NCBI RefSeq assembly: GCF_019649055.1
Contig: NW_026570293.1
Location: forward strand, 248,001 to 312,000
Source of the DNA: Paramacrobiotus metropolitanus
Taxonomy: Eukaryota > Tardigrada > Eutardigrada > Parachela > Macrobiotidae
Reading direction: 5' to 3'
DNA length: 64,000 nucleotides
In this document: in pieces, positions 6,263 to 44,713 of the stretch
Layout: each line of letters begins with the position of its first letter
Numbering within the stretch: position 1 is the stretch's first letter
Translations under genes and position numbers: made by a program
The notes under the pieces: model-generated
What the model saw: the letters and a program-made list of their open reading frames with translations, nothing else
Database searches by the model: none
What the model was told of the DNA's origin: nothing

Positions 6263-6364
6263 AGTCATCAAACTTTCTCTAAAGGCCATCAACCTTTCTC
6301 CAAAGGTCGTCAACCTTTCTGTAAAGGTCATCAACCTTTTCGCAAAGGTCATCGACCTTTCTGC
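6263..6364 (+). repeat. Array of AAAGGTCATCAACCTTT hairpin units (internal right)
   Basis: About five units of the same palindromic word as at 5571-5722, with small changes in the spacer (CATCA, CGTCA, CATCG). The two arrays are separated by about 540 bp of AT-rich sequence without a recognisable gene. Confidence 0.8.
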
Positions 6365-14272: not shown

Positions 14273-15224
14273 TGCCTCTGGGCGGGAGTCCGAGCCCCTG
14301 CGAAGGACCGGCCTCGTACCGCTCCAGTGCCCGCTCCGCACACGACCCTATTGGGGTCGGTGGCTGCGCCTCGGGGGTGTCCGATGACGAAGGTCTCTCG
14401 GTGCCGCGTTCTCCTCCGGACCCGTGGTGGCGATACAACTCACGGCCGAAATCCGAAGGTCGGTCGGTGGTGTTTTGGACCGGTGTAGGCATCTGTTGGT
14501 CGTGTCCGTGACGGCGAAAAAGTAAAAAAAAATAAAGTAATAAAGTATTATTCCATTTCTCTCTCTCTCTAGTAAAAATAACATCACAATTCCTGGTGAG
14601 CAGGTTAGTGAAAAGATCAATAAAATTGAGAACATCATTTCGAGATTAGAAAAAGTAAACTCAAAGTCTTTGGTCCGGGGCTTTGGTCCGGGTGCTCATT
14701 CCGACTAGAGCTGATCCGCTCACGGGGGCTCCAGTCCACAGGATATCCGGCCATCTAGGTCCGAGGCATCAGTTCTCGGGATACCAAGTGGTACCGGTTC
14801 ATTTCACCGAGGGTCGGAGGTTCGACCCTCGAGGGTCAAAGGTTCGACCCTATTAACTTCGGGTAAAGGTACGGATCTCCATTGCCGGGTGTGAAACGGG
14901 CGTGAAACACACTTTCCGACTGGGATCCTCCGGTAAAAGTTCGCTTGGAACCTCCGTTGCCGGGTAAGATAGCTCGTACTTACGTCCAGCCGAGGTTCAT
15001 CGGGTAAGGTTGATAGAGAGGCACCGTCGCATCCGCGAATACCGTAAGGTACCCTTCTCTGAGTGCAGGATAAGACCTATTGGGTCTATTGGTCGGTGGA
15101 TCCTCCGGGGAAGTCCGGTGATCCGAGGTTCGACCCGGGCAAAACCGTTATTTTGTATCCTGTCGCCTATTGGGCAACAAGGACCGGTTAACGCCTGGTC
15201 TCCATAGGGTTGAATAGTCGATAG

Positions 15225-15261
15225 ACGTGGTTTACACTGCACTGTGCAGTGTAAACCACGT
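15225..15261. repeat. Perfect palindrome, 18-bp arms, 1-bp centre
   Basis: ACGTGGTTTACACTGCAC, then T, then its exact complement. It lies in the noncoding region of the giant element between two constant-loop hairpins. Confidence 0.9.
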
Positions 15262-15890
15262 TCTGGTCCGAATGATGATATGGCCTCTGTACGGGAGTCC
15301 GACCCTGTATCCGGTTGGTTTCAAGGTTTTGAAGTCCGATGGTAGCCTCGGTAACCGAGGGTCAGCTCCGGTTGCAAAATCAGAGTCCAAGCTCAGCCTC
15401 GGTTGCTGAGTCTAAGTCCATTGGCAGCCTCGGTACTCAAGTTAGAGTCCGGGTTGTACCCTCGGCTGCGTTGGTCATTGGATACGGTGATGTTCCGCTC
15501 GGCTGACAATCCTGAATTCGTCTCCCGTCACCTATTGGGTAACTCGGAGAGGATGATTGCCGAGATTCGGAGGGTCTAAGGCTCCGAGTCCGAGGGTCGG
15601 GGGTTCCGAGCCTCGGTATCCGACGGTCTGATGGTCGTTTCATCGAGGGTCTCGCCGGTAAGGTAAAGTTGCTGCCCGAGGCAGCCTCCGTGTCCGGGGT
15701 AGCCTCGGTGGTGAGGTAGTCAGCATCCGCTAAGGCTGGTCCAAAGGCATTCTGCCCGGGCAAAAACCCTTTTTAACGTCTCCCGTCACCTATTGGGTAA
15801 CATGGAGAGGGTCAATGCCGCTGGACAGGGTCCGAACAAGTATCCGAGGGTCAATTAGCCTCGGTGTCCAGGGGTCCAAGCCTCGGTAAC

Positions 15891-15923
15891 GAGACTGGCC
15901 CAACATGCTCTGGTGGGAGTCCG
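15891..15923 (-). repeat. Internal copy of the LTR/internal junction
   Basis: GACTGGCCCAACATG followed by CTCTGG and GGGAGTCCG repeats the sequence spanning the 3' LTR border at 14260-14292 with two small gaps. On the element strand it is a second polypurine-site-plus-U3-start, 1.6 kb inside the border. Confidence 0.75.
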
Positions 15924-18254
15924 CTTGATGCTGGGAGATGTCCACCGGGTGACTAGCAAAATCATGCAAAAGAGGCTCCTCGGCGGCTGCATAAGGCCTA
16001 ATTGGGTCAAAGCTGCGAGGTAGGCACTCTAAGTTTTAAAGACGGAATCCGTGCTGGTCCGTTCCTCGGCTGATCCCGTGCTTCCACTTAGGCGGAAACA
16101 CCCGGGATGCCGGAATATAGGGCTAAAGGCCTATTGGGCCTGTTGGCGTAGTTATAGACGTCCGTGGCCTCCTTCTGAGCGTGCAGTCGTGCCGGACTCA
16201 TGAATCCTCTGCCGGGCTGTTATAGCTCTTCAGGGGATTCATGAGTGCCCTAACGTCCTGGTGCATCCTTCCGGTGACCACGGTCCGATTCACGGTGAAA
16301 TGGTCATGCCGGTCACTCATACCATTACTCCAACACAGCGTTGTGCGTAGGGGTGAGGGCATGAGTGTGCCCTAATGTCCCACTTCTTCCGTTCCGTTCC
16401 GGGGGTGGAAGGGAGGCCTATTGGGCCTCGATGGGGATCCACAGTAAGGTAGAGATCGTGGTTGATCTGCGGCACTTGACATGGTAACAGGTCGTGGTTG
16501 TACGCGATCTGCGCGCGATCTGCGAAGGCTTGCATCCTCCGATGGTCCTTCTGCCGGAGGGACAGGCCGGTGGAGCGAAGCGGATCGCGCCGCGCAGCAC
16601 CGTCCCGTCGCTTTTCGTACGACGGATTCCGCCGGAGTTATGCTGCCGAGGCCTATTGGGCTCTCGTGCTGACTTCAAGTGGAGGTCAGTCAGCTATTAC
16701 TCCGATTCCCGGGGTGTCCATGGGTCTGTTGGCAAACACGTTGCTGAAGATTGCGGTGGCTTCTTCGGGAACATGTTAGCGGAATCCTCCTGGATTAGGT
16801 TCCGGAAATTGGTCATATGGGTTCACTGACCGAGGGGGTATTTCTTCCGAGGTCGGCGTAATCCGTACTCCATTAAAGGTTCGAGTCGTGCGGATCGGGT
16901 TGTCAGGGGATATGGCTTCCTGTACCACACGGTCCGCATTCGGTTGAGGGATGGGAGCCTATTGGGCTCGGAGGGTTAGAGTTATGGAACTGGAGTTCCA
17001 CCGGGTCCTTCTGCCGGCTGGGTGCGAGCAGGAGTATCCAGCAGATCATGCTGGGAACTTCTGTCCGACCTCCTTACGTGCGAAGGGTCCGATACTGGGG
17101 CTGTCACCAGGGCCTTGCTGATATAGGACGTTTTCGCTGCCCATATCCACGAGGTCCCGGCTGGTAAGGTTCGAGGGTAAGAGCCTATTGGGCTCTACAG
17201 TCCGAGTTACGGAACTGATCCGCCGGGAGTCCTCTGTCGGAGGGACCTGAACAGGGACAACTGTGTTGTGCGCAGTTGTGCTTGTCCAGTCGCTATTCGT
17301 ACGATTCGTCCCGGTGTGACGTCCCTTGGTTCACACTTTTATCCGGGGGTCAGCCTCCAGGATCCTTCTGCCGGAGGGGCTGACGAGAGATGAACTGTGT
17401 TGTCACAGTTCGCCGCTAGCCAGCCGCTATTCGTGCGATTCATCCCGGTGAACTGAGGTCTTTCTTCGGGTTCGACCCTTCCAATCAGAGGGTCGGAGGG
17501 TCGGACATCGGGGTATCCCTATTGGGGTCTACTCCCTAAGTCAATGGTGGGTCGGGATTCTACCACGCCCTATGATGTTCCCTTTTAGCTCCGGGGATAG
17601 CAGGTCGGCGGAGTCGCTGATCCAGCTGGAGCCAGCTAACCGTCGGGGGTCGGCTAACCCTTTAGTTCGGTTGCATCCCCTCGCTTTTTGGCTCGGTTCG
17701 CCTCCTGTCATTGTCGCCGGAGACCGGAACATTCCGTCCGGTTCATCCAGGGGAAACCTGGGGAGACGTCCGGTACGGTTCAGGTTGAACTCGTACTTAT
17801 CGGGTCTATCCGAGGGATCCATCCGAGGCTCGATTCCAGAGTCTTCTGCCGGAGTGGATTATCCGTGCAGAGCAGAAGGTCATCCTGATCTGCGCGGAGA
17901 AACCGCCTTTCGTGCGAAGGTCCGGACTAACGTGGTTTAGGAGGCTTCTCTTCCAGAACTACGGTAGTCCGAGGGTTGCCGGTTCGGTCTTCCTCTATTG
18001 ACGACGAGGTCGGAGTTTCTGCCTCAGTCGTCCGCAGGGGATTAGGCTCCGCTAACTTCTGGCGGCCTATTGGGCTCCTTCCCTCGGAACCTATTGGGTT
18101 CACAAGGTAGTTGTCGGGCCTTTCGTGAGGTGAAATCCGGTCAGGTCCACTTCTTTGGACTCTGTCTTTCGATCCGAGGTATTTCCGTTCCCGCGATGTG
18201 GGTGATATCGCTCCCCGCGTCGGAGGGACGGAACTTAGAATATTCATTCACAGG

Positions 18255-18516
18255 TGGAGGCCTATTGGGCCTCATACCCCGGAGCCTTTAGGGTCCGGTG
18301 AGGTGTCGAGCAATCTGCTCGGATCGAAGACAGTTCGCATTCTGCTTCCGCTGCCGTTGTTCAGCAATGGATTGGAGCTATGTAAGATATAGGAACCGAA
18401 GTTCCTATATGATGCCGAAGTCTGGATCCTTCTGCAGATGGAGGCCTATTGGGCCTCATACCCCGGAGCCTTTAGGGTCCGGTGAGGTATCGAGCAGTCT
18501 GCTCGGATCGAAAGAC
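18255..18516. repeat. 77-bp direct repeat pair within the noncoding region
   Basis: 18255-18331 and 18439-18516 share TGGAGGCC, the TATTG-loop hairpin, ACCCCGGAGCCTTTAGGGTC and CTGCTCGGATCGAA with about three differences. Between them lies a 24-bp hairpin with loop CGAA (18387-18410). Confidence 0.85.
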
Positions 18517-19016
18517 AGGTTGGTCAATCGTGGTTAGATGCGGTCTGCAGGTTGCCTTCCTCACTGAGATCACCACGGACAGCCGTACTTGTGGCTGACT
18601 CTGTAACTTCTTAATGGTAGCAGATGTGGTTAGGACTGCGGTCTGCAGGAGGATAAGGTCGTGGTTAAGGCTATAATCTGCGGGGTGATGAAGATTGGCT
18701 CGGTGAAAGATATCCCCCGGGCCGTTTGGACGCAATACCAGGTCAGGTCTACCGCCGTATCCCTTATTGAGGGTCCGGTTTAGGTAGCTAATCGTGGTTA
18801 ATGCGATCTGCGCTGGTGTTGGACGGTGTCCCTTGTTGAGGGTCCGGCTTGGTAGCAGATGTGGTTTAACGAGCTGTAAAGTGGTTGGCCAACGATCTGT
18901 GGCTCCACAGACTGAATTCCGTCAATGGGATACGTCTCTATTGGAGACGTCGTCATGTCCATTTGACCGGTTTTACGGTTAGCCTAACCCTATTGGGGTC
19001 CAGCTACCGGTCTCTT

Positions 19017-21332
19017 TTATTCCAAGTCCACGTTGACCGGGGCTCCACCACCGAAGTGGGAACCTTCCGAGTCATCGTCCTTATCCCGTTCCCGTCGTTC
19101 TGGGTGGTTCGAGGATCTAGCCTCCTGGGTACAGGTTGACTGCGATTCCGAGGCTTCCTGTCCGGGCTTTTCAGCTTTGGTTCGGCGGGCTTCGCGTCTT
19201 CGGCGGTTCCTGCCCGAGGATGATGAACCTGGCCACATGTTATACCGGTAGGATGACTTGCCCTCGGGCATCGGTGGTGATGTGAACCCGGGTGGCAAGT
19301 GGCGATGGGTCCGGCACCATTCCGAGAGGGTCGAGGCTTCGTCGACGTCCTTTTCCTCGTCCGGATGGTACTGATATTCCTTATACCATCGCTCTGCCGT
19401 CATCAAGAAGTCACGTAGCCATAATCCCACCACTGTGTCTCGCATCGGCGCGCTCAGCTGGGCCACCGCCGTCCGAAGTCGGGGCGGAATGTTGTTATTC
19501 CGGTACGCGCAGTACAGGGTGTAATGGCTGTGATGGTGGCCAAGTCGGGCCGCGAAGATCAGTCGCAAGGCTGTCTGGAAGGCCAACGGAGCGTCTCCCC
19601 GGGCTTCTGGTTCGATGTTGCCAAGGTATTCGGGCAAGCCCTGGGCCGCTCTGGCTGCAGTGATCACCATGGCTGCTTGTGCCTCGGTGAGTACGAACTG
19701 CGCCACCCATTCCGTGTGGTCCGTGATCTCCCGTTCCGAAGAAAACAACGGGAGCTGGCTCAGTTGAGACCAATCCAAGTGGTCAAGTGGCAATCCCAAA
19801 GTCGCTGGGTCGGTTGTGCTAGGCAAACCGTTCGTCCGGTAGTATGGGAATCCGATGCCATAGGACAGCCGATCGTGCATCTCAAAGTCCTCGGACCATT
19901 GCCGATGTTCGAACATCTGTTGGTATCCGGAATGGTCGAGGAAAATCCGAAGGTCATTGACCAGGTGCCAGATTTGGTTTCGTCGATCCTCCCGGTACTG
20001 CATAGTGCCCATGATATAGTTCGTCCGTTCCGTCGGGTGTGGAATTTCCACTGCAATACCCTGTCGGCGCGCGTGGTCGTACCGAGGGTCATGCTGGCCA
20101 GGCACTACTGGTTCCGGATCTGGTAATGGACGCTGTTGCACTGGCAGCTGGTCCAGCTGCTCCAAAGGTGGGGGTGGTCGCAGGGCTGGGTGTCGAGCCG
20201 TCTGGTGTCGGGCCACAGGCTGCGTGAAGTTACGCCGGGACTTGCTGTTGGAGTCCACGACGAGCCCGGTATCCTCCGAACCGGATCGCTTGCCGGGGGA
20301 GGGTCGGGTCCGATCCTTCGAAGGCTGTTCATCTGGCCTATGTTGAGCCTCCAGCTTGTGTCGTAGGTCCCTTCCCAGCCTATGACGCAGGTCACCGGGT
20401 GCCAAGTCCGACACACTCTGGGTTCTGCGGTTAGACGGAGTGGACCCTATTGGGGTCACTGCTGCCGTCGCTGGTGGTTCTGCCGATCGAACCACTGGTT
20501 GGGCCGGGGGCTGCAAGGGTGTGCTGTCCATTTGCTGGGGTGAGCCACCTTCTTGTGGGGCTACCAGCTGCTGTTCTACCTGGCTCCGCTGAATTGCCGG
20601 CAGAGCCTCCGTTTGTTGGGGGTCGAGGATTTGGGCCATATATTGTCGGCCGTCAGGTCCGGTGAGTGTTACCGTCAACCCAGTAAGTGGGGCGGGGCCG
20701 GCCTGGAACGCGTCTTGAAGGCTGGACGTTTTTAGGGTCCGATCCGGATTCAGCACGTCCATGTCAAGAGGTGCTGAGGGCTCATCCGGGAACCTTTTGG
20801 GTTCCGCCATGAGCCTAGCCTGTAAGTCGCCGGCTACGCCTAAGATGGGATTCTTGTTCTCCTTCGGGCGTGTCCGTTTTTCGTGCTCACGCTGGGCCTT
20901 AGCGATCCGTCGGTCGGCTGCCTCTATTTCTCGGCGATCATCCTCGCGCTCCTGCTCTCGTCGTTGTTCACGGGCATGGACCAATCGGGCGTTGTCCGGG
21001 ACTGCTGGGGTGTTATCCCAGCCGGGCTCGTGGGTACGTCTGCGGTAGCGCTGCATGTCCCACATGTAGAGCAATTGTCGACCGTCCAACTCATCGAGGA
21101 TGCGGCTATTATGGATGGCGTGCATATAAGCACTCAAGTTCCCGGTGACGACCTGGACGTACAGGGCATTGGCCTGGTCCCGTCGTGTGACTCTGTGATC
21201 CCCGGCTTGTCTGTCCAAGTGTCGTAACAGGCATTCCGCACAGGGTTGGCGTGTCCGAGGAGAGTTGTTATTGGCCTTGCACGCCTGGCAATCCGGGTCG
21301 TAGGCTTCCGTTCGGGGCTGGGAAGGCTGTGG
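19017..21332 (-). CDS. Giant-element ORF of about 770 codons after the 2,996-codon ORF, unknown function
   Basis: The frame is open on the minus strand from 21332 (stop at 21333-21335) to 19017. It has no ATG near its 5' end, so it probably starts by splicing; CCACAG at 21327-21332 is a reasonable acceptor. The first 30 residues contain C-x2-C-x12-C-x2-C, a probable zinc ribbon. A charged helix (EQRREQEREDDRREIEAADR) follows, then a Pro/Gln-rich middle. A folded-looking part (about 400-640) contains WHLVNDLRIFLDHSGY and LRLIFAARLGHHHSHY, and the C-terminus is Arg- and Ser-rich. No signal peptide or membrane segment is visible, so it is not an envelope protein. I do not recognise the family. 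Confidence 0.7.
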   Translation of the reverse strand, partial: PQPSQPRTEAYDPDCQACKANNNSPRTRQPCAECLLRHLDRQAGDHRVTRRDQANALYVQVVTGNLSAYMHAIHNSRILDELDGRQLLYMWDMQRYRRRTHEPGWDNTPAVPDNARLVHAREQRREQEREDDRREIEAADRRIAKAQREHEKRTRPKENKNPILGVAGDLQARLMAEPKRFPDEPSAPLDMDVLNPDRTLKTSSLQDAFQAGPAPLTGLTVTLTGPDGRQYMAQILDPQQTEALPAIQRSQVEQQLVAPQEGGSPQQMDSTPLQPPAQPVVRSAEPPATAAVTPIGSTPSNRRTQSVSDLAPGDLRHRLGRDLRHKLEAQHRPDEQPSKDRTRPSPGKRSGSEDTGLVVDSNSKSRRNFTQPVARHQTARHPALRPPPPLEQLDQLPVQQRPLPDPEPVVPGQHDPRYDHARRQGIAVEIPHPTERTNYIMGTMQYREDRRNQIWHLVNDLRIFLDHSGYQQMFEHRQWSEDFEMHDRLSYGIGFPYYRTNGLPSTTDPATLGLPLDHLDWSQLSQLPLFSSEREITDHTEWVAQFVLTEAQAAMVITAARAAQGLPEYLGNIEPEARGDAPLAFQTALRLIFAARLGHHHSHYTLYCAYRNNNIPPRLRTAVAQLSAPMRDTVVGLWLRDFLMTAERWYKEYQYHPDEEKDVDEASTLSEWCRTHRHLPPGFTSPPMPEGKSSYRYNMWPGSSSSGRNRRRREARRTKAEKPGQEASESQSTCTQEARSSNHPERRERDKDDDSEGSHFGGGAPVNVDLE

Positions 21333-21567
21333 TCAAAACACTTAACTTAATATTGTTAAGTTATTTTTGTTTTTAAACCTTTTGGGTCATTACGTAAACC
21401 TATTGGGTTAAACGTTCTACGGTTAGATGTAAGCTTAAACGGTCGGGTACGGTCAGGTCTTGTCCGATCCTTTCCTTTCTCGCCTATTGGGCAAGAGAGA
21501 CATCCCCGTTACGGAGGTTATAGGGTCTCGCCTATTGGGCAAGGAACCTCCGATGATGTATTTCCGT

Positions 21568-24500
21568 TTAGCTTTTCTTCTTCGGCAGGTCAGCCGGGTT
21601 AGTTGACTTAGCCCGTGCCAACCGCTTCTGGGCTTCCGTTTCGGCCGAGGTGGGAGCCTTCGGTGGGCTCGCCGAGCTTGCCCGCGTCTTCGGCAGGTGC
21701 TGTCCGAAGTCTTCAGGTAGGTAGAAGACGGAGAAACGCTGCCCGTGGGTCTTGTAAACCTCACTCGATCCGAGGACTTTCTGTCGGCAGGCTTGTTCCA
21801 GGACGTACTCCAGCTCATCGGCCAGGTAGTACAGGTTGGTTTCCTTTCTTCGGACCGGTCGGTACCGTGCATCTTCCAATTGAGGGTAAGCGGACATCAG
21901 TATGAACTCGAACCGACCTATTAGGTGGTTCAAAATCTCCCGGCGAGTTAATCCTTCCGGGTGTCGATCCGTCCGCAGGCAGGCAATTACTGCATCCCGC
22001 CATCCGAGGTATGTCTTCGGTGCAGGGTCTTGTTCTTCCCTCGGAAAGACGTAATATGCCCGTTCCGTTTTAGTATACACCCGGAGGATGGCACCGGTCT
22101 CGTATGCCATCCGACAGTAGGTCTTAACCCTGTCCAAGCTAAGGTCAAACCAGCTTCCGTCCTTGTCGACGCGCCAATGTTTCAGCAGCTGGTAAGCCAA
22201 CTCCGGGGTTGCATAGGTTGGGCCCGACCATGACAGCGACTTGAGTGCAGCGTGAACATGCACCCATCCAGGGTCGGTGTCGGAGATCCGAGGCTTCGGT
22301 CTGGATGCTCGCATAGTTGCCGGCTGTTTTGGCCGGGGAAGCCGAATGATGGGCTTCGATGGGATCTCCCGAGGCAAGACTTGCGCTGTGTCTTCATGCC
22401 ACTTCATAAGTAGCTGGTCGGCCGGAGGGCTCGGGGTCCGTTGGTCGAAAAAGCCCGAGGCTTGTTGTCCGGAGGGGACCGTCGATCCCGCATCTTCCAT
22501 CGGATCGTCCGGGTCATCTGCCGGAGGTTGTTCCCGATTGTCAGGCTCATCCTCCGGTTCTGGATGTTCGGGTGCCGCTGTTGGCGGCTGCCCTTTGCCA
22601 TCTTCGTTGTCGTCGTCGTCGCCATCCGAATCGTCGGATTTGTCAGAGTCTTGGTCTGACTTGGCGTCCTTGTCATCATCATCCTCCGAAGAGGGTTCTT
22701 CTTCCTCCTCGAGGGACTGAGCATTCCGCGAAGTCCTACCCTTGTTCTTGCGCTTCTTAGTCAAGGACTGGCCCCTTGTTGAGGTTCCAGCCTGCGAAGA
22801 CGACAAGTCCATGGGTGACGGGGGTTGGGATCCCGGAGGGGCTGAATGTGTGTCCTTGACAAATTTACCCCTTCTGTCTCGAGCCGAATGCTTAATGGGT
22901 TTACTGCCGGAGTCTTGGTCGGCTGAGGCGGACCTTTGCAAGCCACCCGGGGCTCTTGGTCGTTCTGGAGGGAATCTGCTACCTGAGGAGGCTGCCGTTG
23001 ATCTGGCCAGCTCCAACCATACTTTGGCTTGGGGTGCAGGGTCTTCCTCTGGTCTGATCTGGACCTCAGCTCCTTCCGGGCTATATTTCTTTGTGTGGAG
23101 GTACGACATCCGAAGCTTCTGTTCCCTCCGGTTCTTTTCGGGGATGAAGTTCGGTACGGTATACCGAAGGTGGACTCTGCGCTGCGCGTTAGTGGTCTGC
23201 AGCTCCCTTCGTAGCACCATCTTCTCGAGGGTAGGGTTTGCTTCCCTCATGATATCCTCGATCTCGGCCTCACCTTTCGGTTTATCGCCGTAGGTGTACA
23301 TCTTGTTGAGGAACCGTGCAATCTGGAGGCGAGTGGTACCTCTTGGGTTCCGGTAATAGCCAATGGCTCTAACTATCCGCTGTTCTGGTGTTTCCATCTG
23401 GCTTAACTTAGCCGGTGGTTTCGGGAGTACCAGTTCGCCCATTCGGTCCCAGGATCGATGGAGTATAAAGGCCATACATTCATCCTGGATCCAGCTGACT
23501 ATCTTCCGCATGAATTGTGCGGTAAGGAAATGGCCTCGCTCTACCCGGTATTCTTCGGTGAGCTTCTCCACTAGGGCCTGGTAGACGTCTCTGCGTTCCG
23601 CGTCAGCTGTGGTGATGATCCGCCGGACATCTTCCTTAAAGATCGCCTTGGAGAAGGTCGGTTCCGGTTCCCCAGGCTGTCTGTCCGGTAGTCTGTTGCG
23701 GATGTTATCCGGGGCTGGGAGATCGGACTCGTCGGTGTCAGCATGGTAGTCCCACATCTCTTCATGGGGACCCTCGGCCAGATGTTTGGCCGAGCTTGGT
23801 TCCAGCTGGTCCGATTCGTTAAGCCTCCGCTTGACTGGGGTATCCTCCGTTTCAATCTCCGGGGATGCCGAGCGTTCTAAGTCCCTGTCCCTTTGCTGGA
23901 TGTTGTCAACCATCCGCTGGAGATATGGTGGGAGCGAGGAGTCTCCTTGTGACTCCTTTTTCTCCTTCTTGACCTTAGGTGCCTCTTTTGGAGGCTTCTC
24001 CTCGGCCCAGTTGCGGATCTCGTTGATCCAACTCTCGATGCTTTGGCCGGGTTTCAACTCGGGCCTAGGCCCCCGATTCTTGTCGGGTTCCTGTCGGCTC
24101 GATGTTGACTCTGGTTCACTATCCGAGGATGGTTGCTCGGGTCGGACCTTTCTTCGGCCCTTGTTACGGCGAACTTCTACGTCCGAGACGTCGGTATCTC
24201 CGCCGCCGCGAGGTTTCTTGGGCAGTCGGTTAGGAGACTCCTTCTTTGAGGTCGACTTCTTAGCCTCACGCTTCTTCCGTACAGTAGTGGAGTTGGCTGA
24301 GTGGATAACCGAGCCGCTGAATGTCGGCATTTCCTCGTCCTCGATCTCCACTGATGGCCGCCGTTTAGGGTCAACCATCCGTTTTGACGGGACCACGGAC
24401 GCCTTTTGGGGTACCGTGGCCTTCGAGGCTTCTTGTCCGCTGATTGGGGAAGGTGCGATGGGGTGCGGCGCCGGGATTTCTCCGGAGGCTCGCTTCTTGC

Positions 24501-30558: not shown

Positions 30559-30720
30559 CGTTATGAGGGGCTGTTGGGATAAAGGAGATACGGCTCGTTA
30601 GCATTCTGATAAGGCCAAATAAGTTCAACTGAAGATTCCATGCACAACTGAAGAGGTCCCATTCCGACACCAAAGGTCCATTCTTAACTATGTCCTAGCT
30701 AAGCCCTAACTTATTCTAGG

Positions 30721-35700: not shown

Positions 35701-38464
35701 TATCGCTGGACGTAGCCGAGGTTGAAGGGCTGTCCGCCGGGTGAGAAACCGTAATTGCGGTTAACTCAGCCCGTTGTTGGCCCGAGCCTCCGTTCTGGGG
35801 TTGCTGGGCTTCCTTTGAGGGTTCGTTGCCGGACGATCCACCTTTTGGGGGTTCGTCCGGGGGTGTGTCGATTCCTACCCATTGAACCGAAGGGTCGAAG
35901 CCGATATCATTATCGTCGTCGTCATCGGAAGTATCCGATGAGTTATTGTCTGAAGGGTCGGATGGCTCATTATCGGAGTCAGTGTCCGGTGAGTCACTTG
36001 TGCTCTGTACATCCGAGGCTTCCGAGTCCCAATCTCCAAATTCGTCGGCTTCGCCTTCCTCCGCTGTTCCGGCGGATGGTCCAAGTAGACCGTCAGTAAC
36101 CCTAGTTGGGGTCTGCTGAGTCGGTCCTTCCCACCTTCCCGGTTCGGGAGGTCCGGGGGATGGTGGCCTACCATGCTCCCAGACTTCTTCATTCCGAGTT
36201 CTGAGGGCTTGGACGATCGCTCCATTGTTTTCGTGGCAGATCGGGCATTCTAAGGCCATATATTCCTGACCCGGGGCTTGTGCTCGTGTATTAGCTAGGC
36301 GGCCCCCGTTTTGTGGGTGCACAGCCTCGGCTAGCCTTACTTTCTTGGCCTGGTGCCAGTTACAAGGCTCGATCGGAGGTTCAGGGTCCGGTACGACCCT
36401 AGTTATACGGGTGTCTTCTCCGTATCGACTCCAAAAGGAGGCAGTGTCCAGGGTACCGAAGTGGTAAGGGTCCCGGAAGTGCCACATAAGGCGTCGGCCC
36501 AGTTCATGGGACTGGATCTCCAGTAGCGCCGGTATGGGGAGCTGATGTTCCACAAATTGTGCGTGGAGTACGATCCGCTCTTCTTCCCATTCGATGATCT
36601 CCTCTTCTAAGGCTTCGGTTAGGTTAATTACCTCCTGGCATTCTTCCCTTGCGGCTCGGATCTGATCATCCGTCCTTGCGCCGACTCGATCAAGTGCGAG
36701 TCTTATGCCAATCGTCCGGGTTTCGAGGAGGTGTCGAATGCCGGAAGACCAGGTTCGGTACCTTTGATTAAGTATACCAGAGGCCGATGCTTCTGGTATC
36801 GGGATAGACTTTAGTATCCCTCGGACTGGTTCCAATCGGGTCGTCCGTACTTTCGCCAAGTATTGTTCGATGGCGTTATGGATCTGCAGCTCCGTTACGA
36901 GGCTTCGTTCGGTATCCGAGCATTGCGGGCAGACCGGGGGTCCGGGGTTCATCGGGTGATCAAGCCGACTTATCCGAGCCTCATTCGCTGCCGTGCCCGA
37001 TGCCTCTGGTATCGGGATAGGCTGCACTACACCCGAAGATGGGTTCCGCTGACCCTCGTTGGGGGTCGGCGCCCGGATGAAGACAAACTTGGAATGCAAG
37101 TAGTCGCATCCAAGAAGTACAGGAACGTCCGAGTCGTTGGGTTGGACGTGGAAGGTATGGGGACTGGTGAATCCTTGCAAGGTTACCGGTACGGTACAGC
37201 AATGGGTCACCATGAAGGCGATTTGTCCGCCAACACCGCGTATTTTGGTGAAGTACCCCAGGGATTCGAGTTTAAGATTGTTGGCCCGGCAGAAACGCTC
37301 CTCTATTAGGGATGTTTCGGCTCCGGTGTCCAACATGGCCGTGGTTGTTACCGGTCCAATTTGAACTTCATGTGTCCATGCCCGGACCACCTTCGGTCGT
37401 TCGGTGGACTGTAACGGTTGGATCGTTACTTCTCGGATGGTCACTTCGACCGGAATTAGAGTTGTCGTTGATCCGCCGGGGACACTATTGGTGTCTACAC
37501 GCGACGGTAATAAGATTCTGTCCAGCCTCGGTGGGTCTACTCCGTCTTGTGGGTTGACCTCCGAGGGTCGGTGTGGACTTAGTCGTTCTGCCGGGGCTTG
37601 TGAGCCTGGTAGCCCGGATGGAACTTCCATAACCGAGTGATTCGCCTCTGGCCGGTTAGCTACTCCGTCCATCAACGATTCGGCGGTTTCCATCGGGTAT
37701 ATCCGGCTTGCTATCCGTTCTTCCATGGATGGTTGACCTTCTCGTAAGGTTGAGAGGTTGTATTGCATGTTGAAGAACGTGCGCGATCCGGTTACAGTTC
37801 GTGCCGGTTGTCGCTGGAAGAGGTCCGCTTCCTGCTGCAGACAGTAGGCGGGTACCTGTGCCTCCAAAGGTACTGCTTCCCAGTCTTCGAAGTACTCCGT
37901 TACTTCGTCGGTCGGAGCCTCCGGCCGTCTACCTGGTTGGCCTACCAAGGACGGTTCAGGCGTCATTCTGACGTCCTGCGAGGTTGCGGGTCGGCGTCCC
38001 GATTCTCCGCTTAGCCCGTGGCTCGTAATGCCTAATTGGGCACCGAGCCGTCCGGGCAGCCTGGTGACGTTTCTCGTCCCGGCTGGTCGGGTCCGGTTTC
38101 TCCGGCCGACATCCCCGGCTTCGCCTTCTGGGCCTGGGGGTCCGGGCACGTTCTGTGTCCCGGCTGCCGATCGGGTCCAAGTTCCTTGGCCGATCCTCCC
38201 AGGTACCTGTTCTGGTCCGGGAGCCGCATTTTCGGCGTGGCGAGGTTCGGGTCGATTCTCCGAGTATCCGAACCGGGGATGTTCGGTGCCTAGTTGGGCT
38301 ACCGTCCCCGCCGCTAAGATTCTAGCGGACTCGCTGACCGTTGCGGAGGCTAAATTCTCGTTGAGGTTCCGAGTTGTGTCCGAAGGGTTATTCCGGTTAG
38401 TAGGGTTATCCTTATCCGGTGGTTCCGTTGGATGACGGAGGTCGAATGAGTCACCGGAGCTCAT
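32678..38464 (-). CDS. pol: Pol of the giant element: protease, reverse transcriptase, RNase H
   Basis: The 1,928-codon frame follows Gag in the -1 frame. About 330 disordered residues come first. The aspartic protease has DTGAE (D379) and LLGCDYL. A 600-residue spacer, acidic and Ser/Pro-rich, with CPICHENN, separates it from two beta-rich segments of the kind seen before gypsy RT (RRGAKIGYMHYS; IRKGTPMGRV). Reverse transcriptase has FCINYIKLNAVT, the MPFGVCNGPATFQ box and YIDD at 1,488. RNase H has ECDASGAGLGAVLSQ, a central Glu in TEWECLAVVWAV and RTDHRAL. The unusual length comes from the disordered head and the protease-RT spacer. An in-frame ATG at 38464 exists, but the frameshift signal suggests Gag-Pol fusion. 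Confidence 0.93.
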   Translation of the reverse strand: MSSGDSFDLRHPTEPPDKDNPTNRNNPSDTTRNLNENLASATVSESARILAAGTVAQLGTEHPRFGYSENRPEPRHAENAAPGPEQVPGRIGQGTWTRSAAGTQNVPGPPGPEGEAGDVGRRNRTRPAGTRNVTRLPGRLGAQLGITSHGLSGESGRRPATSQDVRMTPEPSLVGQPGRRPEAPTDEVTEYFEDWEAVPLEAQVPAYCLQQEADLFQRQPARTVTGSRTFFNMQYNLSTLREGQPSMEERIASRIYPMETAESLMDGVANRPEANHSVMEVPSGLPGSQAPAERLSPHRPSEVNPQDGVDPPRLDRILLPSRVDTNSVPGGSTTTLIPVEVTIREVTIQPLQSTERPKVVRAWTHEVQIGPVTTTAMLDTGAETSLIEERFCRANNLKLESLGYFTKIRGVGGQIAFMVTHCCTVPVTLQGFTSPHTFHVQPNDSDVPVLLGCDYLHSKFVFIRAPTPNEGQRNPSSGVVQPIPIPEASGTAANEARISRLDHPMNPGPPVCPQCSDTERSLVTELQIHNAIEQYLAKVRTTRLEPVRGILKSIPIPEASASGILNQRYRTWSSGIRHLLETRTIGIRLALDRVGARTDDQIRAAREECQEVINLTEALEEEIIEWEEERIVLHAQFVEHQLPIPALLEIQSHELGRRLMWHFRDPYHFGTLDTASFWSRYGEDTRITRVVPDPEPPIEPCNWHQAKKVRLAEAVHPQNGGRLANTRAQAPGQEYMALECPICHENNGAIVQALRTRNEEVWEHGRPPSPGPPEPGRWEGPTQQTPTRVTDGLLGPSAGTAEEGEADEFGDWDSEASDVQSTSDSPDTDSDNEPSDPSDNNSSDTSDDDDDNDIGFDPSVQWVGIDTPPDEPPKGGSSGNEPSKEAQQPQNGGSGQQRAELTAITVSHPADSPSTSATSSDTGLEQDPNTSEAESSEGSPTYDVRAAGQRVSQTDDEQIAQQATFVGGNPVEPDKNTSPDGASAKPKAASVRQTKSEKTVYNPWKRVRRPKPIATGPTVNRLQLHTEDKDEDRQPVFVENKCTLPPFSTCAVLVRTLKSMALHREIHFESFRRKHSGVRPIEDTIEIRPTCDTAWIKIQNATEYNQVLRRGAKIGYMHYSDTYGFEPDNEGIEWEIPMGVARVSQHGDRPYSLPRTTQYDATTVRTQQKVQLLPRAIVEVTVTLDIEVDPAKNKYLMYLGSEEALAEGIEMKDGPTPHDGKKFTILVANHTNKDITIRKGTPMGRVEPYEHMTDDQKARVRLTQEGDEDPATVEEQKKAINSMRLGDNLTDEQRQVLRDIAWEYRLVFPTSKRPYGDVKGVTHVIDVQGAKPIKMNPTRTSWKGREFISKHVQEMLDQGVIEPSDAAWSFPVVLAAKKNPDGSVGTRFCINYIKLNAVTKKNNYPLPNPDELLDKCAGMEYYGKVDCQSGFWQIPMDEASKDMTTFVTPEGMYRFNRMPFGVCNGPATFQMHVDKITAKARKKGVFAYIDDIIFFGRTFEEFKEAFRATLDCLLEAGFTIKPSKCEVGTDKLPFLGHVLSKAGVQTDDEKVAAIAQHQPPRTERQLRSFLGLANYYRKFIRNYAQRTSKMYELLRKTNSIRTDWTDDHTAEFNGIKEALTTAPVLAKFDPTKKTVIECDASGAGLGAVLSQEDHPVAFASRVLHGAEKNYGVTEWECLAVVWAVQKFKHFIDHGPFTVRTDHRALQNLMRCESNRPGINPRLTRWALALQGKDITIEYKPGVFCDNADALSRWPLERPDDNDPHEELDQVPNFEDFKDEIKIRSLRVQRHEIKEKSRRHPDLILEPGGWTDEAKIRSLRVAAEWRQTTNMRRPVPKATPLPGCKVISDWNDLSTPYVRVINVVVPDDPGSQGESRVGTAKVRTTEVNGPEVPGSQGEPEDEEEEKPMESNKELRRLQLRDPHLRKEDR

Positions 38465-38482
38465 CGACCTTAGGCGTTTCCC
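38439..38482 (-). promoter_or_regulatory. -1 ribosomal frameshift signal between gag and pol
   Basis: On the element strand the heptamer GGGAAAC (38482-38476) is in the Gag frame as G-GGA-AAC, six bases before the Gag stop TAA (38472-38470). After a 5-nt spacer comes a hairpin: AGGTCGA then TGAG pair with CTCA then TCGACCT (38470-38439), 11 pairs with one bulged T and a 9-nt loop. The -1 frame entered runs without stops into Pol. GGGAAAC is a known slippery site in retroviral gag-pro junctions. Confidence 0.85.
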
Positions 38483-40785
38483 TGGGATGTACCCGGGACA
38501 GGCCCGCCAATTGCCGGTTGGTATCCGCCCGGGCCCCTATTGGGGGCCGGGGACGGCGGCAGTTGCGGCCGTTGGGCTGGTGGCGGGGTTGCCAATGGGG
38601 GTCGGCCGCCGTTCTGGGGGTTCCCTCCATTTCCCTGGCCAGGCTGCCGGTTAGGGCTGCCTTGGCCGCCGAATCCGCCGGCGTTCTGCTGACGGGGGCG
38701 CGGGGGTGGTACGATGTTCGGGTAGTTCTGATTCGCCGAACCTAACGGCCATCCGTTATCGTACCGGTACCTCCAGTCCAGGTACCATCTCCGGTTTGGA
38801 TTGTCTTCCAGCCGGAGGTTGGCATAGCCACAACTCGCTTGGTTGTGGTTGCCCCATAGGCAGTGACCACAGGAAAATATTCCGTCCTGGGTCCACTGGA
38901 AGAACTTGGCTTCCATCCGATCGACGTAGGTTGCCTGCTGGCGGGCCTCCTGCTGTGGTGTCCGAGGCTGCCGCTGCACGTTCTGGGGCTGTCCGCCTCC
39001 ACCCGCGCGGTTGCCGAAGTTTCCGCGGCCGCGATTCCCGCCGCCACGTCTTCCGCCGGAGCCACCATATTGTGAGGCTCCACCGCGTCCATATCCGCCT
39101 CCGAAGCCATACCCCTGGTTCTGAGGTTGGCCGTAGCCGGAGTTCTGGCCGTAGCCCTGTTGGGGCTGGCCATAGCCGGGGCTCCGAGGCTGGCTGTAGC
39201 CCTGTTGGGGCTGGCCATAGCCGGAGTAACCCTGGCTCTGTGATTGGCCGTAGCCGGGGCTCCGAGGCTGACTCGGTTGGCCGCTATTTCCATAGGCTGG
39301 CGGCGTGACCATGGTCCCTGTTGGGGCTCCATTCAGGTTCATCGCCGCCATTGCCGCCCAAGTCTGTTCAATTTGACCGCGGGGCTGGGGTGGTGGTGTC
39401 GCCGGAGGGCTCTGTCGGTGAAGCCCCGGTTGCACGTTCTGGTAACCTGGCGAGTTGGGTTGGATGTATCCGGGAGCCGGTTGGGTCACAGGAACGGGAG
39501 TCGCCGTCCTGACGGTAATGTAGTTGGTGGAATTGCCACCTTTAACTACCTGATACATCGGCTTGCCCCGGGTAAAGTCCCGTACGTAGTCCCGGAACTC
39601 ACGCGTCGTCTTCGGCATTCGAACGTCCAGGGCTGCCCGAAGGATTGGCTCCGTGACGTTCGTCCGCAGGTAGAAGACCGCCAATTCGTCGGTGAGGTTG
39701 CCTCGTTGTTTGAGGTTTATGATGGCGTCATAGTACTGCTCGGGGGTCTCTTGCCCCAGCATGTACTTTCTGGTGGTGATGTCCGCGACTGCCGTGACCT
39801 GCTTGTCAGGGTCCATAAACCGGGCCGCAAATTGCTGCAGCCAGTAGTCGACGGTCCATCCATTCTCTTCAGGTTCCAGAGTTGACTGGTTCTGGTACCA
39901 TTCCAGGGCTTGTCCAGTTAGGGCGCCCTCTAGCTCCGTCATAAAGGCTACGTCCGTCATTGCGACGCCGTCAGCCTCCGAGCGATAGATTCGCCGGATC
40001 TTTGTGATCCAGCCTTCCACCTTGGCCCCGTCGCCGTTGAACTTCGGCAACTCTGCCCGATTCTTCCGAGCCAAGATCCGGTTGTTCCGCTCTTCGTATC
40101 GGCGCCGGCCTTCTTCATAGCCCTCCTGTCGGGCTTGAGCAATGTCTTGCTCATCGGGTGGTGGGGTTTGACGGTGTTGGACCGCCGGCATTGCCTGTTG
40201 GGCTACCGGAGGGTTCCAAGCCACCGGGTAGGCCGCTTGCTGGTTCTGCGCAGCCGGGGCGGGTTGAGGTGGGTACGGCTGTGGTTGGGGTTGGGGGTAT
40301 GGGTTACCAGGGGGTGCCGGCTGGGGCTGTCCAGGTCCGGGCGGAGGATTCTGCGCTCCATACCCTTGGTTCGGCGGCGGGTTTGGTGCCACATACCCAG
40401 GCATCCTTTGAAGGACTCTGTTGTGGTCAAGCCACATCCCCGGTGGTATAACCACGTATTGGTCGGCCTGGGGCACCGGACCTATTGGGTCCATATTGCC
40501 TTGCCGAGGCTGGCAAGGTCCATTGCCGACAGCGCCGGGGCCAACCAGACCTATTGGGTCACGGTTGTCTGGCCGAGGCTGCTGTGGTGCGTTATCCGGA
40601 TATCCGGGGCGTACCGGGTCAGCCCAATTGCGCTGCCCTGCCGATACAGGTTGAACTTCGATCCTCGGCGGGTACGTGTTCTGGGAGCCCGAACGTTGTC
40701 GGTCCCGGTTGGAATTCCCCGAATTAGGCTGTGAGGCCTCCCGCCGAAGCGTTTGTCGGCGGTCGGAGTCCCATGCCAGATCCGT
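38470..40785 (-). CDS. gag: Gag of the giant element with zinc knuckle and prion-like Gly/Tyr/Gln region
   Basis: An ATG lies at 40494, but the frame is open and protein-like back to the TAA at 40786-40788, so translation may begin further upstream. The capsid region (about 160-320 from the ATG) carries ALTGQALEWYQNQ, AARFMDPDKQV and YYDAIINLKQRG, typical of gypsy Gag. A stretch of GYGQPQ, GYSQPRSPGYGQ and RGG repeats (about 390-510) resembles FUS/EWS-type low-complexity domains. A canonical C-x2-C-x4-H-x4-C knuckle starts at C542. The tail is Pro/Gly-rich. It ends at TAA 38470, six bases after a slippery heptamer. A constant-loop hairpin (40478-40492) abuts the ATG. Confidence 0.9.
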   Translation of the reverse strand, partial: TDLAWDSDRRQTLRREASQPNSGNSNRDRQRSGSQNTYPPRIEVQPVSAGQRNWADPVRPGYPDNAPQQPRPDNRDPIGLVGPGAVGNGPCQPRQGNMDPIGPVPQADQYVVIPPGMWLDHNRVLQRMPGYVAPNPPPNQGYGAQNPPPGPGQPQPAPPGNPYPQPQPQPYPPQPAPAAQNQQAAYPVAWNPPVAQQAMPAVQHRQTPPPDEQDIAQARQEGYEEGRRRYEERNNRILARKNRAELPKFNGDGAKVEGWITKIRRIYRSEADGVAMTDVAFMTELEGALTGQALEWYQNQSTLEPEENGWTVDYWLQQFAARFMDPDKQVTAVADITTRKYMLGQETPEQYYDAIINLKQRGNLTDELAVFYLRTNVTEPILRAALDVRMPKTTREFRDYVRDFTRGKPMYQVVKGGNSTNYITVRTATPVPVTQPAPGYIQPNSPGYQNVQPGLHRQSPPATPPPQPRGQIEQTWAAMAAMNLNGAPTGTMVTPPAYGNSGQPSQPRSPGYGQSQSQGYSGYGQPQQGYSQPRSPGYGQPQQGYGQNSGYGQPQNQGYGFGGGYGRGGASQYGGSGGRRGGGNRGRGNFGNRAGGGGQPQNVQRQPRTPQQEARQQATYVDRMEAKFFQWTQDGIFSCGHCLWGNHNQASCGYANLRLEDNPNRRWYLDWRYRYDNGWPLGSANQNYPNIVPPPRPRQQNAGGFGGQGSPNRQPGQGNGGNPQNGGRPPLATPPPAQRPQLPPSPAPNRGPGGYQPAIGGPVPGTSQGNA

Positions 40786-42701: not shown

Positions 42702-43491
42702 CCTTCCCGTTGAAGATTTGGGAAGTCCCCGAGGTCGGCTTCGGTGAGGTCGAAGTCCGATTCGAAGTCCCGGTGAGGGTCCTCGGGTCCGGTGTGGTCG
42801 CCTTCGGAGTCCCCGAGGGTCGCTTCGGGTCCGGCGACGTCGATTTCCGGTTGTTGTCCGAAGATTTTAGGTTGTTGCCCGTTGGTTTGGGGCTTTGAGC
42901 CAGGGTCGATGGGGACTTAGTCGGTGAACCCGCCTTGTGGGTCACCCCCCGGGTCGGTGATACCGTACCCTTCGTCTGGCTCGGGCTCATCTGGCCTTGC
43001 CTCGGTTTCGGTCCAGCCATGCTGCCCTGTTGGGGCTGCACAGGGTCACCCATGTCTGGTGACGCCTCGGAGCTACTTAGCGCCGGGCTCGAGGCTCCAT
43101 GGTCCGGGGTGATGGCCGGGAAGAAGACTGGCGAGGCACCTGTTGGGTGCACAAGTCCAGCCGCAGGCTCGGAGTTCGCAGTTTGACCTATTGGGTCATG
43201 CAGAACCTCCGACTCAGCCTGTGGTAGCTCGAGGAACGTCCGGTCGTGGGCGTCCTCGAAGCTATCCTCCGGCGATTGGGTGAAGTCGTTTGCCAGGATC
43301 CGCGCATCCCGCTTCTCCTTGGCCGACTTAGTCGACTGGTTCGACTTGCCGGACTTACTCGATCGGTTGGAATCCGACGAGTGAGGCTCACTACCCGGGC
43401 CGGCATGGCGGAAGGTGTACCCGCCTGCGTTGTCTCGTCGGGCGTAGCCTTGGTCGAACTTCCGTTCATACGGGTTCTCTCGACCGGACAT
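42562..43491 (-). CDS. Pre-Gag frame 1 of the giant element, disordered, ATG start
   Basis: ATG at 43491 starts MSGRENPYERKFDQGYARR. The 309 codons are rich in Ser, Pro, Thr and Lys with no folded domain. It is the first ATG-initiated long frame after the 5' LTR and so the probable translation start of the genomic RNA. A constant-loop hairpin (43502-43516, stem GGCTC/GAGCC) lies 11 bp upstream of the ATG, and two more (43136-43150 and 43184-43198) lie inside the frame, where they encode Pro-Thr-Gly and Pro-Ile-Gly. Confidence 0.65.
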   Translation of the reverse strand: MSGRENPYERKFDQGYARRDNAGGYTFRHAGPGSEPHSSDSNRSSKSGKSNQSTKSAKEKRDARILANDFTQSPEDSFEDAHDRTFLELPQAESEVLHDPIGQTANSEPAAGLVHPTGASPVFFPAITPDHGASSPALSSSEASPDMGDPVQPQQGSMAGPKPRQGQMSPSQTKGTVSPTRGVTHKAGSPTKSPSTLAQSPKPTGNNLKSSDNNRKSTSPDPKRPSGTPKATTPDPRTLTGTSNRTSTSPKPTSGTSQIFNGKVAVGWNLEHRGSSLGHRGSDPQHRGPDSDPTGWNTQDPAGNPHFLG

Positions 43492-44713
43492 CTTCGGTGG
43501 TGGCTCTATTGGAGCCTTGAAGTAGCCTCCGGGTTAACCCTTCAGCCAAGAAGTCAGACTATCCCTATTGGGGACTTGTCCGAAATTGATGAGGCTTTTT
43601 GCCTGTTGAAGGTCCGAGGGTCCGGTGGGGGGGCAGAGGTCCGGTGGGGTGTGGGGTGATGGTGTAGGTGTGCTTGTACTACTTGCAACTCAGTACTGTT
43701 GTCAATACAGGGTACAGCTTACGTACGTCCTATACTACAGCACTGACCGCTATGACGTCACACACCGTTAAGTGGTCTTGCAGATTACTGCCTACGTCAC
43801 GATTCTGCGCGCCGCGTGCAAAATTCCAAAAAACTATGAGTCACTACGGGCCTATAGCATAGGGAATCTCCCCGCTATCCTGATTGGTCAATTATTATAA
43901 TGTAAAATCGGCCGTCGTGACGTCACAATTATTTAAATTTTTGAATTAATTATTTTCCGCGTTAGAAAAATTCCAGAAATTCAGGAAAAATTCAGGAAAA
44001 ATTTTCTAGCCGGCCAAAAATTGATTTAGCCGGGGGAAATTAGTTCCCTTAATTTTCTAAAGGTTCAGAAAGGTCGTTAGCCGAGGCTCAGAGGGTCTAC
44101 ACCGAGGCTCGAGGGTCCGGCCTAGTAAGGCTGGCTAACCCTATTTTTACCCGTTAAAGATGTTTTTAAGCCCGTTTCTCCGGGTGAAAATAAGTTTTAG
44201 CCGGCCAAAACTACTTTTGGTCCGGTGAAAATAAAAAATGCCCGGCTATATCGGGTCTTATGAGGCTCTACGAGGCTTACCGAGGGTCAGTTGACCCTAT
44301 CTACCGGGTAAATCCGCGTGAATCCGCTGGTTGATTCGGTGAATCCCGCGCTGGTAAAGTTGCGGGTGCCACTTAAGGCAAAGGCGACCCCGATTGATGA
44401 GGCTGAGAGGGTCCGCGAGGGTCCGTGCCGTCCGTTCTGTCCGGGGATCCGCGGGAACCGCTAATCAACCCGGTCAAGTCCGTCCGAGGGTTGTTTCCGC
44501 GAGGAACGTTCCGTCCACGCGCAAGGAGAAGGGTCTGCCGAGGCTTTCTGCCCGCAAGAGAGAGAAAAGAGACCAGACCGTTCTGGCTGGCGGCGATCAG
44601 ATGGGGATGGGAACCGTTGGTTCTCCCCTTTCTTCACGTCGGCCGTACGGATGTAGGTCTACACCGTGGTCTCGAGAGGTTCGCAGAAGGAAAAACTCAA
44701 CGATCTGCTATCA
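43492..44713 (-). other. 5' untranslated region of the giant element
   Basis: 1.2 kb between the 5' LTR and the first ATG. It contains two TGACGTCA (CRE-like) palindromes near 43752 and 43917, an AT-rich block (about 43880-44100) and further constant-loop hairpins (43502-43516, 43562-43574). No long frame on the element strand was recognised. Confidence 0.6.
44704..44713 (-). other. Probable primer-binding site, initiator-Met tRNA type
   Basis: On the element strand the bases right after the 5' LTR read TGATAGCAGA. Animal initiator-Met tRNA ends so that a matching site would read TGGTAGCAGA, giving nine of ten matches. The mismatch falls opposite the CCA end, which is unusual and keeps the call tentative. 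Confidence 0.55.

Follow-up and report, generated by a model that had tools for sequence, protein, structure and literature searches.

Dispersed constant-loop hairpins in a giant Ty3-type retrotransposon of a tardigrade, and other loops in its sister lineages

The window analysed here is a stretch of 64,000 nucleotides from the tardigrade Paramacrobiotus metropolitanus (contig NW_026570293.1, positions 248,001 to 312,000), in which a single long terminal repeat (LTR) retrotransposon fills positions 13850-45135 on the minus strand, i.e., 31,286 bp. The sense RNA of this element carries 31 perfect hairpins of at least 4 bp with the loop CAAYA, which are under selection and cluster in the copies of the element. 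Sister lineages of Ty3 type in the same genome bear hairpins with other loops; this is the most telling fact of the analysis and goes beyond the first-pass annotation of the window, which had described the hairpin family from the letters alone. We propose, with a probability of roughly 55%, that the hairpins are dispersed packaging or assembly recognition sites read by a protein that the lineage itself encodes, most likely through putative binding by Gag.

Results

Inventory of the hairpins

On the plus strand the hairpins appear with the loops TATTG and TGTTG. The window holds 25 TATTG hairpins of at least 4 bp, 24 of them inside the element, and seven TGTTG hairpins, all inside it; arms of at least 5 bp are found in 18 of the 25 TATTG hairpins, every one inside the element. 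When the reverse-complement loops are sought on the plus strand, CAATA gives one 4-bp match, outside the element, and CAACA gives none. The constant-loop family of the first-pass annotation is thus confirmed, with eleven of eleven coordinates exact. The fixed loop CAATA that it had read for the element RNA is indeed the main form, but the loop is better written CAAYA, with position 4 mostly T or C. The 31 hairpins are as follows, with changes seen in other copies of the element.

14343..14359, minus strand, CAATA hairpin, 6 bp
15073..15087, minus strand, CAATA hairpin, 5 bp; GACC/GGTC becomes GGCC/GGCC in L003 and L004
16127..16141, minus strand, CAATA hairpin, 5 bp
16413..16429, minus strand, CAATA hairpin, 6 bp; broken in L039
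16955..16969, minus strand, CAATA hairpin, 5 bp
17180..17196, minus strand, CAATA hairpin, 6 bp
18087..18101, minus strand, CAATA hairpin, 5 bp
18257..18273, minus strand, CAATA hairpin, 6 bp, inside a 78-nt local repeat
18441..18457, minus strand, CAATA hairpin, 6 bp, in the second copy of the 78-nt local repeat
18761..18773, minus strand, CAATA hairpin, 4 bp
18830..18842, minus strand, CAACA hairpin, 4 bp
18932..18950, minus strand, CAATA hairpin, 7 bp
18987..18999, minus strand, CAATA hairpin, 4 bp followed by a G.U pair
20443..20457, minus strand, CAATA hairpin in the 733-aa open reading frame (ORF); loop CAACA in 5 of the 5 homologous copies found
21343..21363, minus strand, CAATA hairpin, 8 bp, intergenic; lost in L041 and L042
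21397..21409, minus strand, CAATA hairpin, 4 bp, intergenic
22574..22588, minus strand, CAACA hairpin in the 2996-aa ORF
26104..26116, minus strand, CAACA hairpin in the 2996-aa ORF
30106..30122, minus strand, CAATA hairpin in the 2996-aa ORF; one pair is C-G in 17, U.G in 4 and U-A in 1 of the copies; site broken or lost in L017
30219..30231, minus strand, CAATA hairpin in the 2996-aa ORF; one pair is A-U in 14, G.U in 3 and G-C in 6 of the copies
37481..37495, minus strand, CAATA hairpin in the protease-reverse transcriptase (PR-RT) ORF
38532..38548, minus strand, CAATA hairpin at the 3' end of the Gag ORF; GGCCCC/GGGGCC becomes GGCTCC/GGAGCC in a copy
39153..39167, minus strand, CAACA hairpin in Gag
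39198..39212, minus strand, CAACA hairpin in Gag
40478..40492, minus strand, CAATA hairpin touching the last base of the Gag start codon; GGACC/GGTCC becomes GGGCC/GGCCC in a copy
40548..40560, minus strand, CAATA hairpin, intergenic
43024..43036, minus strand, CAACA hairpin in the 309-aa ORF; several pairs altered together in a copy
43136..43150, minus strand, CAACA hairpin
43184..43198, minus strand, CAATA hairpin; TGACC/GGTCA becomes TGGCC/GGCCA in copies
43502..43516, minus strand, CAATA hairpin, 5' noncoding; broken in one diverged copy
43562..43574, minus strand, CAATA hairpin, 5' noncoding

Sites occur both in noncoding DNA and in ORFs, as had been noted, although at very different densities: 13 of the 31 lie in the 4.7 kb of 3' noncoding DNA (14273-19016; 2.74/kb) and another 13 in ORFs (0.55/kb), with none in the LTRs. 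The rest comprise two in one 349-base gap between ORFs, two in 5' noncoding DNA and one in another gap. A few sites are local duplicates, namely the pair at 18263 and 18447 in the 78-nt repeat and the pair at 15533 and 15791, which have common flanks. The in-ORF hairpins had been said to encode Pro-Ile-Gly or Pro-Thr-Gly; this holds for 6 of the 13, the others reading QPQQG, APNRG, DTNSV, etc., and all three reading frames are used. Selection for a protein motif such as Pro-Ile-Gly is ruled out, because the hairpins fall in three frames and are denser in noncoding DNA. When 125-base pieces were folded locally, the innermost pair had a probability of at least 0.7 at 39 of 42 sites, which serves as a consistency check only, since the tested sites were chosen for their pairing. 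At the gathering score, Rfam 15 gave no matches across 13800-45150.

Enrichment, loop specificity and stem length

Chance or composition as the origin of the hairpins is ruled out by shuffling. Of 100 dinucleotide shuffles of the element, 98 had no TATTG hairpin of at least 5 bp and two had one, against 18 observed, and no 5-nt loop reached more than 3. The element also has a general excess of structure beyond the CAAYA set; in 20 shuffles, other loop lengths proved enriched too (6 nt, 41 vs 21.6; 7 nt, 44 vs 22.0).

Loop specificity was assessed as the rate of hairpins of at least 4 bp per occurrence of the loop sequence, in the window element and 42 of 46 loci (L009, L038, L045 and L046 excluded); some of these loci overlap, so that sites are counted repeatedly, and identical 17-mers within one locus were counted once. 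CAATA forms a hairpin in 183 of 475 occurrences, CAACA in 22 of 375 and CAAAA in 11 of 296, compared with 1271 of 204,841 (0.6%) for all pentamers, and the 13 other one-letter variants of the loop yield 0 to 3 hairpins each. Stem pairing was profiled in 206 distinct 25-mers that have a CAAYA loop closed by two pairs: it clearly exceeds expectation at positions 3-6 and is at or below it at positions 7-10, with small excesses at position 8. The unit is therefore a stem of 6 bp carrying a pentaloop that is nearly fixed, pairing being elevated up to position 6 and at chance level beyond.

The pattern CCCAATAGG occurs 1360 times in the genome, as against 710 times for the reversed pattern. Among the first 100 genome places, 57 are on contig C1, and 50 of these form three same-strand clusters of 16-17 that coincide with copies of the element; the scattered places count as matches to the pattern alone.

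Compensatory changes in homologous copies

Homologous sites were drawn by blastn for 58 reference sites, taken from four sequences with partial homology among themselves; stem cells are positions 1-6 where paired in the reference (n=768), and positions 9-20 serve as flanks. One-sided changes were found in 61 of the 768 stem cells and two-sided changes in 21, where independence would give 3.5. All 21 two-sided changes lead from one Watson-Crick pair to another, compared with 17 of 84 that are Watson-Crick in the flanks. Change is rare at stem positions 1-2 (0.019 per side; flanks 0.14-0.21) and in the loop, where, out of 184 cells each, positions 1, 2, 3 and 5 changed in 5, 2, 4 and 3 and position 4 in 24 (T to C 17, C to T 3, T to A 4).

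For the sites at 30112 and 30223, an alignment of 23 copies has 90.0% of cells paired. The pairing level, the covariation score and the eight cells changed on both sides were each reached by 0 of 500 shuffles, and sliding the partner by 1-3 columns lowers pairing to 9-53%. Selection for nucleic-acid structure, which the first-pass annotation had suspected, is strongly supported by the compensation and the covariation score. Two outcomes had been named there as refuting it, similar counts in shuffled sequence and uncompensated stem changes in related copies; both were put to the test and neither came about. Some hairpins are nevertheless broken or lost in copies (16419 in L039, 21351 in L041 and L042, 30112 in L017), a result that tells against upkeep at these sites and would follow from the decay of some copies.

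Sister lineages with other loops

The group of related reverse transcriptases (RT) in the genome is large, with 1698 candidates, of which 97 were scored and matched. Sister lineages, with an RT about 80-89% identical to that of the window element (312-320 residues), share much of its gene set. They do not share its CAAYA hairpins: hairpins per occurrence of the loop number 31/127, 25/68 and 19/61 in the window lineage, whereas eight sister loci have 0, 0, 1, 0, 2, 0, 0 and 0 hairpins. One of these loci, L047, has 2/29, which is above chance at the 1% mark and for which we have no explanation.

The sister lineages have loops of their own. In the lineage at 82% RT identity, the tetraloop YAHC forms hairpins in 15/342, 19/338, 18/333 and 14/340 occurrences, with about 1.2 expected in each; in the lineage at 88%, the heptaloop MACNNAA forms them in 17/88 and 9/49, with 0.3 and 0.2 expected. 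Two further copies have VACRAAG hairpins (9/26 and 3/12; 0.1 or less expected). VACRAAG is the weakest motif, with few sites; L053 is the copy on which it was picked, and L052 (last 6.5 kb) yields only 3/12. The sister motifs were in part chosen on the data in which they were counted, YAHC from L046 and the loop profile of L047 and L046 together, and MACNNAA from L050, so the independent counts are those of the other copies L048 and L051 for YAHC and L045 for MACNNAA. None of the three motifs is in excess at the 1% mark on the sense strand of the window lineage.

Counts by loop length against 20 shuffles agree with this picture, with 45 vs 17.6 for 4-nt loops in the 82% lineage and 58 vs 13.2 for 7-nt loops in the 88% lineage; 5-nt loops are in excess in every lineage counted. 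Different loops in sister lineages are thus seen clearly in three classes, and in a fourth on few sites. The two heptaloops have an AC core in common, and their lineages are mutually the nearest of the five compared (RT 90-92%); loop similarity follows descent in this respect. Compensation could be followed in the 88% lineage, where the eight two-sided changes in stems include six that are Watson-Crick, against two of eight in flanks. Copies of the 82% lineage are too alike for this, with 1 Watson-Crick change among 3 two-sided ones (flanks 5 of 16).

Between lineages, identity is 42-55% in the Gag capsid region, 50-58% in the knuckle region and 82-90% in RT, and a CX2CX4HX4C knuckle is present in all three Gags read.

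Two further observations concern these lineages. Besides YAHC, L047 and L046 have an excess of A-rich 5-nt loops (44 vs 14.1 in shuffles) that we cannot explain. In the 88% lineage, an open frame of at least 3333 aa (L050:2-10000, plus strand) spans the N-terminal ORFs and Gag and enters RT, regions that are split among separate ORFs in the window element.

Architecture and surroundings of the element

The LTRs of the window element are 98.6% identical across 423 columns and end in TG...CA, and CGAG flanks the element on both sides as a 4-bp target-site duplication. By its domain order in Pfam (RVP/gag-asp_proteas, RVT_1 and RT_RNaseH, then H2C2 and rve), its LTRs and the CCHC knuckle of its Gag, the element is of Ty3 type (Metaviridae-like). 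In RNA sense, the 5' LTR is followed by a 309-aa ORF, coiled-coil-like ORFs of 456 and 182 aa, Gag (674 aa), protease-reverse transcriptase-RNase H (1928 aa), integrase (639 aa), a 2996-aa protein, a 733-aa protein, 4.7 kb of noncoding DNA and the 3' LTR.

13850..14272, minus strand, 3' LTR, TG...CA, the element sense being the minus strand; no hairpins of the family
19017..21218, minus strand, 733-aa ORF, function not assigned (ORF list, Pfam)
21568..30558, minus strand, 2996-aa protein, function not assigned, with partial relatives in sister lineages; alternative candidate reader of the hairpins
30721..32640, minus strand, integrase (H2C2 and rve; Pfam)
32678..38464, minus strand, aspartic protease, reverse transcriptase and RNase H (Pfam)
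38470..40494, minus strand, Gag, with a capsid-like region, a GYGQ/RGG linker and a CX2CX4HX4C knuckle by translation, and homologs in sister lineages; candidate reader of the hairpins
44714..45135, minus strand, 5' LTR; no hairpins of the family

A Pfam search of the 674-aa Gag gave no matches, and the knuckle was read from the translation. Gag has FUS-like GYGQ repeats as well as RGG (38470-40494, minus strand). A search with Gag found four NCBI proteins, all from P. metropolitanus. The closest ones carry the names salivary proline-rich protein or tyrosine phosphatase non-receptor type 23-like, and are probably mis-named retrotransposon Gags. For the 2996-aa protein, no homologs at E<=0.001 were found among the 5532 candidates of a protein search, and a PDB profile search with its C-terminal part gave no matches up to E 1.

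A hairpin of another kind, with 8 bp (CTTTATTG-TGGATAG-CAATAAAG), lies within 13850-13927 and 44714-44791 and is identical in both LTRs. Outside the element, 9112-9801 and 45858-46541 are 80-82% alike in places and in conserved order, so the 31-kb element lies within or between copies of another repeat. A second Ty3-like element is represented by a 2052-aa ORF (57109-63267, plus strand) with an aspartic protease and a weak H2C2 match below cut-off, in which loop-length counts against shuffles gave no enriched hairpin loop. Tandem repeats at 5553-6363 have a unit that can form AAGGT-CATCA-ACCTT, another constant-loop hairpin.

Discussion

Proposed function

The hairpins may be cis-acting recognition sites dispersed along the genomic RNA, about 30 per 31-kb molecule, in which a 6-bp stem of free sequence would present the nearly fixed CAAYA pentaloop as a ligand. 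The loop would be bound at many places by a protein that the element encodes. Gag is the likeliest binder, by way of its RGG and zinc-knuckle region, and this binding would mark, gather and package the element's own long RNA. Many sites along 31 kb would help to collect and compact the molecule, as has been proposed for dispersed packaging signals of viruses. Of the uses that the first-pass annotation had suggested, packaging or protein binding fits best, while reverse-transcription pausing fits less well because a fixed loop would be superfluous to it. The obvious candidate reader is Gag, since it must find the genomic RNA, carries RGG and a knuckle, and has diverged far more than RT between lineages.

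The sister lineages would then have switched loop (YAHC, MACNNAA, VACRAAG) alongside a strongly diverged Gag, each acquiring an address label of its own. More tentatively, at somewhat under even odds, each lineage may have a private RNA address code along its whole genome, the loop co-evolving with its own RNA-binding protein so that its own RNA is packaged and that of its sisters is not. Neither composition nor a mobile hairpin, nor one RNA-binding protein of the host, would predict lineage-specific loops.

Several points weigh against this proposal. The 21 two-sided changes amount to fewer independent events, as the reference sequences are partly homologous. At 30112 and 30223, the number of pairs with a two-sided change (3) was reached by 86 of 500 shuffles and that of further pair types (6) by 95 of 500; these shuffles take no account of relatedness. 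For the most part, the knuckles of retroviruses favour unpaired G, which neither CAAYA nor YAHC contains. Because Gag generally evolves faster than RT, its divergence lends weak support. The wobble test is mixed: across sites on the sense strand, G.U pairs outnumber A.C at stem positions 3-4 (45 vs 16), whereas at positions 5-6 they do not (36 vs 35), nor do they among one-sided changes at homologous sites (20 vs 19). Finally, amplification in trans is without support, the junction of the deleted copy described below being whole in that copy only.

This copy, 23 kb long and with both LTRs, lies on contig C5 (L054:8841); an internal deletion joins window positions 27075 and 34854, and the hairpins are kept. 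Of 48 matches to its junction, from the 40 scored among 56 candidates, only that copy itself has it whole. The idea of a non-autonomous relative amplified with the hairpins was set aside, these matches showing no amplified derivative.

Alternative explanations

Another protein of the element, of 2996 or 733 aa, might read the hairpins instead, serving not packaging but export of the RNA from the nucleus, its stability, the translation of its many ORFs or the evasion of silencing. The peak of hairpin density in noncoding and intergenic DNA would suit such a role. Sister lineages also encode partial relatives of the 2996-aa protein, and the one that corresponds to its C-terminal part in the 82% lineage resembles linker histones weakly (E 0.035, short of the curated cut-off). 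However, Pfam recognised no RNA-binding domain in either ORF, and hairpins also lie inside the Gag and PR-RT ORFs. We consider this alternative unlikely, though it deserves to be kept in mind.

A host RNA-binding protein that reads the loops, e.g., to localise or repress the RNA, seems rather unlikely. In its favour, cellular RNA-binding proteins typically recognise short single-stranded loop motifs carried on simple stems. Nevertheless, a single host reader of all the loops is improbable because the loops differ between lineages of one host; three loop classes are clearly distinct and a fourth is seen on few sites, which would call for several host proteins, and the compensatory upkeep suggests that the sites benefit the element. 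A reader encoded by the element would be the simpler account.

The structure could also act as DNA, as a cruciform or as single-stranded cDNA during reverse transcription, bound for instance by integrase or nucleocapsid protein. The parity of G.U and A.C among one-sided changes, seen also in the sister lineages (9 vs 8 at 82%, 3 vs 4 at 88%), is what would be expected if wobble were useless. The excess of G.U at stem positions 3-4, though not at 5-6, points the other way, as does the known use of dispersed loop-motif hairpins, which is as RNA. Action as DNA is quite improbable, and the RNA strand is likely the acting form.

The spread through the element of a small mobile palindrome, which the first-pass annotation had also entertained, or of template-switch palindromes is very hard to credit: a few local duplications do carry a hairpin and share flanks, but most stems differ, the flanks are mostly unrelated and stems at the same site change in compensating pairs. 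Kissing among the hairpins was rejected as well; CAAYA is not self-complementary, TRTTG-loop hairpins number 0 of 22 on the sense strand, and with no complementary partner loop, loop-loop contacts are unlikely.

Comparison with known systems

Excerpts of reports on single-stranded RNA viruses and hepatitis B virus (HBV) describe many stem-loops with a common motif that act together in assembly (PMC6281560, PMC7793301, PMC7612645, PMC8677749, PMC4751978, PMC3593212). The examples that these excerpts give are MS2, satellite tobacco necrosis virus and enterovirus-E, together with the core loop motif RGAG of HBV. The 31 CAAYA hairpins resemble such signals in being spread across a genomic RNA, their structure conserved against sequence drift. 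In contrast to them, the hairpins belong to an animal LTR retrotransposon and have perfect stems, a nearly invariant loop and loops that differ between sibling lineages. Protein binding is reported, in the same excerpts, for the viral signals, while the tardigrade hairpins are known from sequence alone.

Retroviral packaging hairpins are few and lie near the 5' end. Those for packaging and dimerisation in Ty1 are likewise few and near the 5' end, according to the part of the source available (PMC5454406), and partial texts describe the retroviral and Ty1 regions (psi, kissing loops) as cis-acting hairpins of the genomic RNA read by Gag (PMC8396678, PMC5454406). The tardigrade element differs in having about 30 hairpins along its RNA and a loop with no complementary partner. 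The conserved 3' UTR (untranslated region) stem-loops of L1 and Alu are presented, in an excerpt, as a structured mark by which the machinery of the element may find its RNA (PMC5135761). The hairpins described here are similar as a structured RNA mark, but one that is dispersed, repeated and part of an LTR element.

Searches of the open-licence literature on retrotransposon hairpins, giant LTR elements, LTR elements of tardigrades and the transposable elements of P. metropolitanus found no description of such hairpins in the excerpts retrieved; those retrieved on the last topic do not name this species. We know of no loop code among sibling retrotransposons. What is new relative to known dispersed signals is the lineage-specific loops in sister retrotransposons of one genome.

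Significance

How an LTR retrotransposon selects its own RNA among cell transcripts and those of its relatives is poorly known. In this tardigrade, the cis-acting part is visible directly, in some 30 copies per RNA and as a defined ligand, a 6-bp stem with a nearly fixed loop. The rate of hairpins per loop sequence against background gives an easy way to screen other giant elements for RNA signals of this dispersed kind. Sister lineages within one host amount to natural loop swaps, which makes the co-evolution of a recogniser directly testable with short RNAs and protein fragments. If the proposal is true, these lineages would hold a naturally evolved set of orthogonal RNA-protein recognition pairs.

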